NCBI GenBank assembly: GCA_024402715.1
Contig: JAKSTF010000005.1
Location: forward strand, 1 to 49,686
Direction of reading: 5' to 3'
DNA: 49,686 nt
Source: Alphaproteobacteria bacterium
GTDB lineage: Bacteria; Pseudomonadota; Alphaproteobacteria; Rs-D84
Shown piece after piece: positions 37,909 to 43,290 of this stretch. Numbering within the stretch: position 1 is the stretch's first letter; each line of letters starts with the position of its first letter. The position numbers and the translations under genes were made by a program. Below the pieces are notes generated by a model, which was not told the DNA's origin, did no database searches, and was given only the letters and a program-made list of their open reading frames with translations.

Positions 37909-38262
37909 TTATCTTTGACGATTACGATAATTTCCAGACAAAACAAAATTTGAGCACGTTTCATTCCATTTTACACAACGTGGTCCAAACACTTCAACAC
38001 GAAGTGAAGTCACATCAAAACATATCCGTTCATTTGAATGATTATACGGTCCTGAATTTTCACAATACAAACAAATTTTTGGAACATCAACTGAACGAAC
38101 TGATTTACACCCATCGCATTTGTGTGATGATGTTAACATTTTTTCACAATTATTACAATTATTATGGTCAACACACCCCATACATTCACACAATCCATTA
38201 TTGTTAAATTTAGATAATTCAACACGTGTTTCAAATTTACCACACAAATTCGTTTTTGACAT
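37909..38262 (-). CDS. Cys-rich zinc-ribbon-like small protein, unknown function
   Basis: 117 residues from ATG 38262; AGGGGAA, embedded in the end of fmt, gives a good Shine-Dalgarno, so the longer frame to 38319 is rejected. There are 13 Cys, including four CxxC pairs (27/30, 36/39, 49/52, 64/67), suggesting two zinc-ribbon/treble-clef units. There is no signal peptide or membrane span. It is embedded in a translation-related operon between fmt and truA with tight spacing on both sides (2 and 5 bases). I do not recognise the family. Confidence 0.7.
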   Translation of the reverse strand: MSKTNLCGKFETRVELSKFNNNGLCECMGCVDHNNCNNCEKMLTSSHKCDGCKSVRSVDVPKICLYCENSGPYNHSNERICFDVTSLRVEVFGPRCVKWNETCSNFVLSGNYRNRQR

Positions 38263-38264
38263 TA

Positions 38265-39071
38265 CTATTCCCCTAATTTTATATCCGCACCATGCAGACC
38301 ATTTACAAAACTTTTCCAATCCATAGACTTTTTTCCAGCCGGCTGTAATTGAATAATATCCAATTTATCACCATTAACGCGCGTTTGCAAAATTTTTACA
38401 TCCATACCATTTATTTTTGTTCGTCCCGCCCCCAATGCACGTATTTGATTATGAATATCACACACTGATTTTGACCAATCAATAATTTCATCGGCACCCG
38501 TAAATTTACGTGTAAATGTCGGCTGTCCATTTTGTTTGATTGCACCATACGCAGTCGGATTCTCCAAATATTTTACCAACATTTGTGATCCAATTTCAGA
38601 CACACGTTTTTCAACAATTTCATTTGTATCATTTTCATCAATTTCAAATTCACATCGCATATAAATGTCGCCGGCATCTAAATCAGGGGTTATTTGCATT
38701 AAACATACGCTGGATTTTTTATCACCATTATAAATAGCCGTCTTAATTGGTGATGGACCGCGATATTTTGGTAAGTCACTGGGGTGAATATTTATACACG
38801 GCGCACTGTCCAATACATTATCACGTAATATAGCCCCATATGAAACAACAACAACCATATCCGGTGAAAAATTATATTCCGATGTTTTATGAAAAACGGG
38901 CAAGCCATATTTATCCGCCCAAACATGAACAGGCGATTTGGTTAAAATTTGCTTTCGTCCTTGGGGCTTTGGCATGCGTGTAAAAACCGCCATTATTTCA
39001 TGTCCTGCGGCATGCAACGCCTCAAACATAGGAACAACAAAATCATTTGTTCCCATCAATACTAATTTCAT
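38265..39071 (-). CDS. fmt: Methionyl-tRNA formyltransferase
   Basis: Adds a formyl group to Met-tRNA(fMet) using 10-formyl-tetrahydrofolate. 268 residues, shorter than the usual ~310, with the deficit in the C-terminal OB domain. The catalytic set is present: INIHPSDLP (Asn, His) and LDAGD (Asp), plus the YRGPSPI loop. It overlaps def by four bases (ATGA) and acts with it: Fmt adds, Def removes, the formyl group. Confidence 0.95.
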   Translation of the reverse strand: MKLVLMGTNDFVVPMFEALHAAGHEIMAVFTRMPKPQGRKQILTKSPVHVWADKYGLPVFHKTSEYNFSPDMVVVVSYGAILRDNVLDSAPCINIHPSDLPKYRGPSPIKTAIYNGDKKSSVCLMQITPDLDAGDIYMRCEFEIDENDTNEIVEKRVSEIGSQMLVKYLENPTAYGAIKQNGQPTFTRKFTGADEIIDWSKSVCDIHNQIRALGAGRTKINGMDVKILQTRVNGDKLDIIQLQPAGKKSMDWKSFVNGLHGADIKLGE

Positions 39072-40862: not shown

Positions 40863-40895
40863 AAAAAATAATCTGCCAAAACGGCAGATTATTTA
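40863..40895 (-). terminator. Intrinsic terminator overlapping the DUF262-HNH stop codon
   Basis: 11-bp stem AATAATCTGCC/GGCAGATTATT (40867-40877/40883-40893); the TAA stop (40889-40891) lies inside the stem. ATTTTTTGG follows on the minus strand. Confidence 0.88.
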
Positions 40896-41992
40896 TCCGA
40901 TTTTTCACGGTTATGTTTGCGACACAGCATAACGCAATTATCTTCGGTGGTTTGCCCACCACGGGACCATGGGATATCGTGATCACCCTCCATTTCTTCA
41001 AATGCCCAACATTTATTTTCATTTTGTGTCCCACGACACATGGGGCAAATACCCTTTTGGCGTTCATATACAGTGCGTTTTATATTGTCATCAAATTGGC
41101 GCAGATTTAAATGCTTTGAATCATTATCAAAAACATATTCGTATATACCACGTTTATTTTCAACCTCGCTATCACTCATCAATTTAAAGACTGTTTTTTC
41201 CAATTCATCGGCATCATATTGATTTGCATGATATGTGTTATAAAGTTTTCCCCAATCAACAGATTTCATTTCTTTGCGATATTTCGGAAACAGCAACTTT
41301 ATCCAATTTATAACAGCGGTAAAATACATCCACAACTCGTTATCATTTGAATCAAGTTGATGTGCGTTCATATAAGATTCTATTTTTCCATCTGATATCC
41401 ACGATAAAACAGTTTCCAAGCCTTCCTGTCGGTTCCATTTTGCGTTTATATATTTATCGCCAATGGATTGTGCCGGGTTATTATTTTTAGAAAAGTGCTT
41501 TTTAGCCGCCATCAACCATGGTCCCCGATATGTGGCATTGCGTAATTCTTGGTCGGATAATTTTTCGCCGGCGATATTTATTGTTCGGAACCATTCCAGT
41601 TTTTCAGAATCTGTTCCGTCACTGCAAACATAGACCTGTAATTGATAGTTTAATATTTGTTCCTGTTCGTCTGTTTCCAACGAATCAAATTGTCGATCAT
41701 TTATTGAAAAATATCCGTTTACATATTGGCATATTGATATGGTTCGTTGTTGTCCGTCCAGTATTTCAAATTGATTATCACCATTATCAACCCAATACAT
41801 AACATTTAATGGGAAACCCTTTCGCACAGAATCAATAACAGAATCACGTTGTTTGTCATGATATACAAATTCACGTTGATATGCCGGCCGCACATCCAAA
41901 TTTCCGCCGTATGCGACAACGCCATCTTCCAAATTATCAACATAGCCGTTGGCCAATTCACGAACAGTAATCGGTTTTAATTCAATCTTCAT
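40889..41992 (-). CDS. DUF262 (GmrSD-type) protein with C-terminal HNH nuclease
   Basis: 367 residues from ATG 41992 (AAAGGA nine bases upstream). The N-terminal DUF262 domain has RPAYQREFVYHDKQRDSV and the ParB/GmrS-like nucleotide-binding ILDGQQRT (77-84). The C-terminus is an HNH module: CPMC (316-319), GDHDIPWSRGG with Asp337-His338, Asn352 and CRKHN with His360, all catalytic positions intact. GmrSD-type type IV enzymes normally carry DUF1524 instead; here a McrA-like HNH is fused. It overlaps the methyltransferase by 11 bases, so it is the likely restriction partner. Confidence 0.85.
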   Translation of the reverse strand: MKIELKPITVRELANGYVDNLEDGVVAYGGNLDVRPAYQREFVYHDKQRDSVIDSVRKGFPLNVMYWVDNGDNQFEILDGQQRTISICQYVNGYFSINDRQFDSLETDEQEQILNYQLQVYVCSDGTDSEKLEWFRTINIAGEKLSDQELRNATYRGPWLMAAKKHFSKNNNPAQSIGDKYINAKWNRQEGLETVLSWISDGKIESYMNAHQLDSNDNELWMYFTAVINWIKLLFPKYRKEMKSVDWGKLYNTYHANQYDADELEKTVFKLMSDSEVENKRGIYEYVFDNDSKHLNLRQFDDNIKRTVYERQKGICPMCRGTQNENKCWAFEEMEGDHDIPWSRGGQTTEDNCVMLCRKHNREKSDK

Positions 41993-42983
41993 TTTTTGTA
42001 TCCTTTTTTCTGCGAATATAAATTCTTCTATATAATGTTTTTCCATTTACAACATTGTCTAAATTTCCTAAAACACCCCAATGATCCAACTGTATAATCT
42101 CAAATTGCTCTGGATTGTATTTATCCAAGAAAGTAATTGGAACACCCATGATTTCATAATAATCAACGGGTATATCAGCGGTATTATTTATATTTATTGC
42201 ATCATAATTATCGTATTTTGGAAAATCATTTTCATTGCCATAATAGTTTTTATAATTTTTGGGAATGAATTCGTCATGACGTTTTGAATAATCAAGATTT
42301 GTGTACCACCGAACACCCTTTACACGAATATATTTTTTACCGTTTTCGTCTATTCTGTAACCAACAGCATTTATTGGGTATGAATCTGGCACACCAAATT
42401 CTCTATCGCCACTATGAATGCTTTCGCCCAACCACATTTTATTTTCTTTTATCAGTGGGAAAATTTCTTTATATGTAACTGCGTTTATGTTTCCAATAAT
42501 TAAAAATTTTTTATTGTATTCCATTAACTGTGCAACATATTCACGAAACAACGAAAACGGCGGATTGGTGACGACAATATCCGATTGTTTTAATAATTCA
42601 ATACATTCTGGACTGCGAAAATCACCATTGGAAAATAACATTTCTTTTGTTTCAACATCTTGGCGGTTTATTTTGCCGTCACCATTTACATCACGACCAC
42701 GTGTTATTGTTAAAATATATGACTTTTTATTTTCATCTGCTTCATAGTGTGTACATATCAGTTTTTTCAACCCCAACACCGAAAAATTATCGGCAAAATA
42801 TTTGAAAAAATTTGACTCGGTCGGGTCATCACAATTACAAAATACAACCATATCTTTGAAATGGTTGTGTTTTGATAAATGGTTATAATTGTTTAACTCT
42901 TTTTCAATATCACTGCGTTGGGTATAAAATTCATCGTTTTTCCCTTTGCGTGCATTCGTTAACGCCCCCGTTGTATTCGCCAT
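41982..42983 (-). CDS. EcoRI-family adenine-specific DNA methyltransferase
   Basis: 333 residues from ATG 42983; the longer frame to 43091 runs through the structured leader. Features: NDEFYTQRSDIEKEL near the N-terminus, VVFCNCDDPTESNF, and the amino-methyltransferase catalytic motif IVVTNPPFSLF (NPPF 140-143), matching the EcoRI methylase family (N6-adenine). An EF-hand-like DVNGDGKINRQD (98-109) lies between them. The Shine-Dalgarno is GGGGCG. First gene of a two-gene unit with DUF262-HNH. Target sequence cannot be inferred. Confidence 0.88.
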   Translation of the reverse strand: MANTTGALTNARKGKNDEFYTQRSDIEKELNNYNHLSKHNHFKDMVVFCNCDDPTESNFFKYFADNFSVLGLKKLICTHYEADENKKSYILTITRGRDVNGDGKINRQDVETKEMLFSNGDFRSPECIELLKQSDIVVTNPPFSLFREYVAQLMEYNKKFLIIGNINAVTYKEIFPLIKENKMWLGESIHSGDREFGVPDSYPINAVGYRIDENGKKYIRVKGVRWYTNLDYSKRHDEFIPKNYKNYYGNENDFPKYDNYDAININNTADIPVDYYEIMGVPITFLDKYNPEQFEIIQLDHWGVLGNLDNVVNGKTLYRRIYIRRKKDTKNED

Positions 42984-43000
42984 TTTCGCCCCGATTTTTA

Positions 43001-43030
43001 TAAAAATAAACCGCCAACAGAAATGGCGGT
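43001..43030 (-). terminator. Intrinsic terminator just upstream of the methyltransferase
   Basis: ACCGCCA/TGGCGGT stem (43010-43016/43024-43030), followed on the minus strand by TTATTTTTA. The ATG is only 17 bases beyond the T-tract. Confidence 0.8.
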
Positions 43031-43225
43031 CGGGGTGTTGGTAAATCACTATATCGTTGATTCTGTTGACCTTTGGGTAACCCCTGAACATACGTCAACA
43101 GCACACCCGACCATAATAATCGGGTTTATAACGGTGCAAAAAACACCGAAACATCGGATTACGATGCTTTCGCACCGGATATAGAGGACTTACCACAGTC
43201 CCGAACCCAATTCCCATTGGATTCA
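43001..43225 (-). ncRNA. Structured leader RNA with terminator/antiterminator-like helices
   Basis: A promoter-driven stretch upstream of the methyltransferase with many perfect helices: 43207-43211/43216-43220, 43186-43190/43197-43201, 43132-43137/43172-43177 enclosing 43152-43156/43162-43166, and an 8-bp stem 43063-43070/43094-43101. Segment 43106-43112 can pair either with 43120-43124 (first 5 bases) or, over 7 bp, with 43028-43034, which overlaps the terminator stem. It may be a cis-acting attenuator or a stand-alone RNA. It does not match tmRNA, RNase P or SRP RNA hallmarks I know. Confidence 0.6.
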
Positions 43226-43231
43226 TTTGCT

Positions 43232-43260
43232 ATTTTAACAAATAAAATTTCATTAATCAA
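43232..43260 (-). promoter_or_regulatory. Promoter of the structured leader and RM unit
   Basis: On the minus strand TTGATT (43255-43260), exactly 17 bases, TAAAAT (43232-43237). Predicted start near 43225. The -35 box directly follows the T-tract of the upstream HAD gene terminator. Confidence 0.6.
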
Positions 43261-43290
43261 AAAAATATCGGCAATGTGCCGATATTTTTA
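43255..43290. terminator. Terminator after the HAD phosphatase gene
   Basis: ATATCGGCA/TGCCGATAT stem (43265-43273/43277-43285) with A- and T-runs on both flanks, so it could stop transcripts from either side. It overlaps the HAD stop codon. Confidence 0.85.

Follow-up and report, generated by a model that had tools for sequence, protein, structure and literature searches.

A riboswitch-like candidate family of leader RNAs before accessory genes in an order of Alphaproteobacteria

c-di-GMP riboswitches (GEMM-I/II) are present in many copies per genome; they often have a terminator, and the genes behind them are often those of surface proteins. As for restriction-modification genes, to our knowledge it would be unusual for a structured RNA to control them in place of a C protein or autogenous regulation by the methyltransferase. 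A literature search of open-access papers found nothing comparable to RNA-controlled restriction-modification. The locus described here lies in a 49,686-nt stretch of an alphaproteobacterial genome (contig JAKSTF010000005.1, hereafter the window). On its minus strand, from 43260 to 43000, a promoter is followed by a 225-nt structured RNA and a terminator, and then by the gene of an EcoRI-type methyltransferase. The leader belongs to a previously undescribed, order-wide family, whose members stand before restriction-modification genes and, more commonly, before genes of surface proteins. Its parts and the genes behind it are the following.

43232 to 43260, minus strand: sigma-70-type promoter, with -35 TTGATT (43260-43255), a 17-nt spacer and -10 TAAAAT (43237-43232)
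43000 to 43224, minus strand: leader RNA, from the predicted start G43224 through the end of the terminator tail
43203 to 43224, minus strand: P1, the 5' hairpin, GAATCCAA...TTGGGTTC
43186 to 43202, minus strand: P2 hairpin, GGGACTG[TGGTAA]GTCC, whose loop (43195-43190) is the 5' arm of PK1
43202-43200 with a partner near 43035-43033, minus strand: P0, an alternative helix of GGG (in P2) with CCC
43178 to 43184, minus strand: 5' arm of P3, CTATATC, forming a long-range 7-bp helix with 43055-43049
43132 to 43177, minus strand: P4 domain, CGGTGCGAAA...TTTTTGCACCG, with a strongly conserved internal GCATCGT
43104 to 43125, minus strand: P5 hairpin, 5' arm 43125-43120, 3' arm 43112-43104, the latter being also the 5' strand of the antiterminator
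43062 to 43101, minus strand: P6, CTGTTGAC...GTCAACAG plus an inner hairpin, absent from some copies (L011, L013)
43044 to 43061, minus strand: P7, AATCA (43061-43057) with TGATT (43048-43044)
43055-43049, minus strand: 3' arm of P3, GATATAG, inside the P7 loop
43039 to 43044, minus strand: 3' arm of PK1, TTACCA, partner of the P2 loop 43195-43190
43028 to 43037, minus strand: 3' strand of the antiterminator, CACCCCGACC, overlapping the 5' arm of the terminator
43000 to 43029, minus strand: intrinsic terminator, CCGCCA (43029-43024), TGGCGG (43016-43011) and a T-rich tail to about 43000
41982 to 42983, minus strand: EcoRI-type adenine DNA methyltransferase, the first gene controlled, ATG at 42983 (PF13651, E 5.7e-128; PADLOC MTase_II)
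40889 to 42046 (start coordinate tentative), minus strand: GmrSD_N and HNH protein, the overlapping second gene (PF03235, PF01844; PADLOC REase_II, E 7e-125)

The GmrSD_N-HNH protein is probably the partner restriction enzyme of the window methyltransferase; here (40889-42983) an EcoRI-type methyltransferase stands with such a protein and not with an EcoRI-like nuclease. Directly before the leader promoter, a separate perfect hairpin between T-runs (43262-43290, AAAATATCGGCA...TGCCGATATTTTT) ends the upstream HAD-family gene. Elsewhere in the window, a cysteine-rich ORF of 136 aa (37909-38319) has no Pfam match.

The fold energy of the 225-nt window leader is −101.3 kcal/mol, compared with −69.3 ± 5.2 kcal/mol in dinucleotide shuffles, and none of 200 such shuffles is as stable (z = −6.21; 42984-43260). 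The initial annotation, made from the sequence alone, had described a 17-spaced promoter, a helix-rich stretch of about 225 nt and a terminator before the methyltransferase ATG, all of which lie where it had placed them. The segments that it named are also exact, namely GGTCGGG (43112-43106), CCCGA (43124-43120), CCCGACC (43034-43028), CCCCGA (43035-43030), and TCGGGG (42994-42989).

Nucleotide search revealed 6 leader copies in the window genome and also matched 53 of 99 relatives. When 35 copies are aligned, a single anatomy emerges (promoter, GAATCC start, P1, P2, P4, P5, P6, a conserved CUCCCCGACCG, terminator, start codon). Both promoter elements are kept at the same position in 115 leader copies, and the start and the terminator end are common to homologous copies (G at +1 in 92%, A at +2 in 98%). 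According to the covariance model, the leader is present in 54 of 59 sampled genomes of the genus and in 176 of 201 genomes of the order (17 of 23 genera), with 4 to 58 copies per genome in the 12 genomes examined further, which are roughly 1 Mb in size. The exact 19-nt P4 pattern, searched against 84,980 species, matched 99 stretches, nearly all of them confirmed by the covariance model; among the matches listed, record titles are almost only those of gut Alphaproteobacteria assemblies. The order that carries the family is probably Ca. Enterousia/GTDB Rs-D84, uncultured gut Alphaproteobacteria with genomes near 1 Mb (PMC12306168). Two leader-bearing contigs binned as Clostridia or Oscillospiraceae (L098, L137) are most likely binning contamination from this order. 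The viral collection gave 3 matches to the leader pattern, of which 2, on high-GC phage contigs, look like chance. A viral-collection contig of the leader-bearing lineage (L192:12535-13433) has phage tail genes and one leader before a lipoprotein gene; judging from it, accessory genes on prophages may carry the leader along, or the leader may adjoin a prophage border.

The 3' strand of P5 (GGUCGGGGAG) can pair either with the P5 5' strand or with CUCCCCGACC, the last bases of which are the 5' arm of the terminator. Two exclusive partners of 43106-43112, one of them invading the terminator stem, had been predicted from the window alone, and the alignment of 35 copies bears this out. The antiterminator is 96% canonical, with changes on both sides at 6 of its 10 pairs; 0 of 500 shuffles match its covariation, and sliding the partner by one column gives a pairing of 54–64%. 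The P5 hairpin is 94% canonical and too conserved for much covariation. P0, in which GGGG of P2 pairs with CCCC immediately ahead of the terminator, can coexist with the terminator and has 13 double changes at column pair 25-193 (105 copies). The predicted layout of the leader is the usual one of a transcription attenuator. Median energies are −20.8 kcal/mol for the antiterminator duplex, −13.5 for P5, and −13.0 for the terminator; since this ranking favours the antiterminator, termination by default would require kinetic control or assistance. Regarding the Shine-Dalgarno region, the complementarity proposed to gate translation is present in the window copy, and pairing of this kind is stronger than in control segments. 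Gating itself, however, is not specifically supported: pairing with the own region (−7.16 kcal/mol) barely exceeds that with permuted partners (−6.87 ± 0.11 kcal/mol), so outside the window copy it is weakly copy-specific.

Compensatory substitutions in related genomes, which had been proposed as a check, proved abundant, in particular in P3, PK1, P6, the terminator, and the antiterminator. Across 35 copies, 45 pairs are 94.7% canonical, with both-side changes at 25 pairs (205 double-change cells); none of 500 shuffles reaches this, and slid controls give 30–47%. According to the APC-corrected G-test on 105 nonredundant copies, P3 and PK1 rank top, with 10–62 double changes per pair in P3 and up to 58 in PK1 (P2 loop with the strand before CUCCCC). 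In the same copies P2 and P0 have double changes at both alternative pairings, and the terminator covaries at column pairs 198-211 and 201-208. P7 covaries little, its column pair 165-179 being 98% canonical. A second family of the order has the same architecture, where in the model-fitted alignment PK1 is paired in 21 of 21 matches and P3 in 19–21 of 21, with many pair types. P3 and PK1 also covary among paralogous copies inside single genomes (G202 and G199); in G202 alone (44 copies) they are paired in 98–100%, with many double changes. The aligned copies demonstrate the predicted helices, the pseudoknot and both alternative pairings, as well as a promoter, a terminator, and a position that are conserved. 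The bases GCAUCGU, A153 A154, and U177-A179, which are unpaired yet conserved, suggest a putative binding core.

The window leader has no match in Rfam 15 at the gathering threshold, with either strict or permissive search (the best sub-threshold match in the permissive one has 25 bits, the threshold being 54), which speaks against a known housekeeping RNA, an identity considered in the initial annotation. We regard it as likely that the leader is a cis-acting transcription-attenuation leader and a member of a multi-copy RNA family that would be the order's common switch for accessory genes.

In 114 of the 119 copies with a readable downstream gene, the start codon of that gene, taken as a simple first-ORF call, lies 20–59 nt beyond the core. 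This fixed position disfavours the independent small RNA that had been named as an alternative. Aligned copies do have their own promoter and own terminator, as expected of a multi-copy family of trans-acting small RNAs that end at the terminator and merely neighbour the next gene. Such RNAs, however, would explain neither the nearly constant start-codon distance nor the covariation of the antiterminator, which has no role in a free-standing RNA. Moreover, leaders of homologous genes from different genomes resemble each other more (0.76) than do those of unrelated genes within one genome (0.68), and we consider the small-RNA reading very improbable.

The cis-acting leader precedes at least 76 unrelated gene clusters, mostly of exported proteins. 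A hydrophobic N-terminus is found in 43 of 76 downstream clusters versus 141 of 505 background ORFs (p = 2e-6), and lipoboxes are enriched too, both features being called by heuristics. These gene statistics are skewed to close relatives, because copies were sampled by similarity to the window genus and by one exact pattern. Pfam matches of downstream genes include several methyltransferase types, an Mrr-like nuclease, glycosyltransferases, outer-membrane barrels, ankyrin proteins, and a PLD-like protein; there is no common metabolic theme among them, unlike the case of most metabolite riboswitches. A riboswitch specific for restriction-modification would fit the window genome, where 6 of 6 copies precede methyltransferase or nuclease genes (two EcoRI-type methyltransferases, an Eco57I-type protein, HsdM, another N6 methyltransferase, and a protein that by eye is a GIY-YIG nuclease). 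Most copies elsewhere, however, precede genes of exported proteins, and many methyltransferases of the genus have no leader: it is present before 4 of 8 full-length EcoRI-type methyltransferases and 1 of about 6 strong HsdM matches. As a general reading, this specificity is refuted by the order-wide gene list, and we hold it to be extremely improbable. The RNA switch of a restriction-modification operon proposed in the initial annotation thus stands as a structured cis leader with terminator/antiterminator geometry, but not as one specific for such operons. In genome G014, nearly all sampled leader copies precede one paralogous exported-protein family. This genome has about 46 or more copies (among them L254-L273), and the proteins, with a signal peptide followed by ASI(I/V)SRGFFDE, resemble a variable surface-protein family under a single leader type.

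Leader identity also tracks protein identity (Spearman 0.55). Given this and the greater likeness between leaders of homologous genes, the leader travels with its gene. This inheritance, together with the conserved promoter, start site, and start-codon distance, argues for an element that acts in cis and not for a mobile repeat. A dispersed mobile or repeat element, with promoter and hairpins incidental, would account for up to 58 copies per genome spread over unrelated genes. On the other hand, nearly all copies point toward the next gene, they diverge by about 30% while tracking gene identity, and their pairs are strongly conserved, which makes such an element hardly credible.

In the closest pairs, P3 and PK1 evolve at about four times the rate of the remaining leader (post hoc comparison). 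P3 is unchanged in 0 of 7 near-identical same-genome pairs versus 12 of 16 orthologous pairs (p = 1.7e-4, post hoc). Two G014 copies are near-identical from the promoter into the coding sequence, with P3 and PK1 arms that differ and still pair. In the near-identical leaders L258 and L262 (G014) and L062 and L289 (G047) both P3 arms differ, usually PK1 too, and pairing is kept. A P3 'barcode', with uniqueness kept among the copies of one genome, was rejected: exact P3 repeats number 0 of 231 versus 1.5 expected, and in G202 they number 2 versus 2.8 expected. As exact repeats are no rarer than chance, there is no support for copies of one genome actively avoiding the same P3.

As for the signal, the GGDEF domain is found in 0 of 35 genomes of the genus and the RelA_SpoT domain in 0 of 24; both GGDEF and RelA/SpoT domains are present in other families of the order. 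Because the genus lacks them, c-di-GMP and (p)ppGpp, whose synthesizing enzymes are absent from the sampled genus genomes, are unlikely to be the signal. The missing genes for two common second messengers, as well as a large regulon of mixed function that fits a global regulator, would suit the same terminator/antiterminator leader with its state set by an RNA-binding protein of the order instead of a small molecule. However, no candidate protein was identified, there is a single NusG, and the elaborate two-pseudoknot core with its conserved unpaired bases looks more like a self-contained aptamer; control by a protein is in our view unlikely, though a serious contender. In the 37 genomes with a match there is at most one NusG per genome and no paralogue, which argues against a partner of the RfaH/LoaP type. 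It also counts, together with the leader's own competing terminator, against a polymerase-modifying cis element of processive antitermination (put, EAR, or ops/RfaH type). Accessory, horizontally moving genes are, as generally known, typical targets of these elements; still, processive antitermination appears improbable here.

With the leader read as a cis-acting attenuator, RNA polymerase would start at about 43224, and P2, PK1, the long-range P3, and P6/P7 would hold the transcribed core together. In the OFF state, GGUCGGG would be sequestered by the P5 hairpin (with PK1/P0), and the terminator would form ahead of the start codon. The ON state would have the P5 3' strand paired with CUCCCCGACC instead, so that the terminator is disrupted and the polymerase enters the gene. 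We infer that the cell switches between the alternative pairings and that a single common signal, a metabolite or ion rather than a protein, makes the choice. The leader resembles riboswitches in general in being a conserved structured RNA in the 5' leader of genes and, on comparative evidence, in having a mutually exclusive terminator and antiterminator as expression platform; membership proper needs a ligand. The best reading is a putative new orphan riboswitch-like attenuator family for accessory genes. More tentatively, we propose a new riboswitch class as a general on/off switch of accessory genes (phage defence, surface-protein families), with up to 58 copies per ~1 Mb and with P3 and PK1 rewritten far faster than the rest, even between near-identical same-genome copies, yet perfectly paired. 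If the leader is indeed a switch, an entire order of uncultured gut bacteria with reduced genomes relies on a single RNA element for both variable surface proteins and restriction-modification, and this element operates in a genus without the common second-messenger enzymes. It would also provide a ready family of hundreds of strongly covarying copies for ligand discovery and a handle on host-facing gene control in probable symbionts or parasites.

In comparison with described systems, the leader is like GEMM-I/II in the many copies of one structured leader per genome, the surface-protein genes, and the terminator, and differs in that nothing in Rfam matches it at gathering score and none of 35 genomes of the genus encodes a GGDEF protein. 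It shares the terminator/antiterminator choice in a leader of 200–300 nt with T-box and amino-acid attenuator leaders; unlike them, it has no Rfam match and, by eye, no conserved leader ORF or specifier/UGGN pattern. Similarly to ops/JUMPstart with RfaH, EAR, and put RNA, which promote read-through as RNA or DNA, it is an element of accessory operons; in contrast to them, it has its own terminator and alternative helix, and the genome has no second NusG-like gene. As for the orphan riboswitch candidates of intergenic-region surveys (e.g., PMC11109978), the leader differs from them in its many copies per genome, its mixed accessory genes, and its occurrence in one order as far as searched, and shares with them a conserved, covarying 5'-leader RNA, an apparent expression platform, and an orphan ligand.
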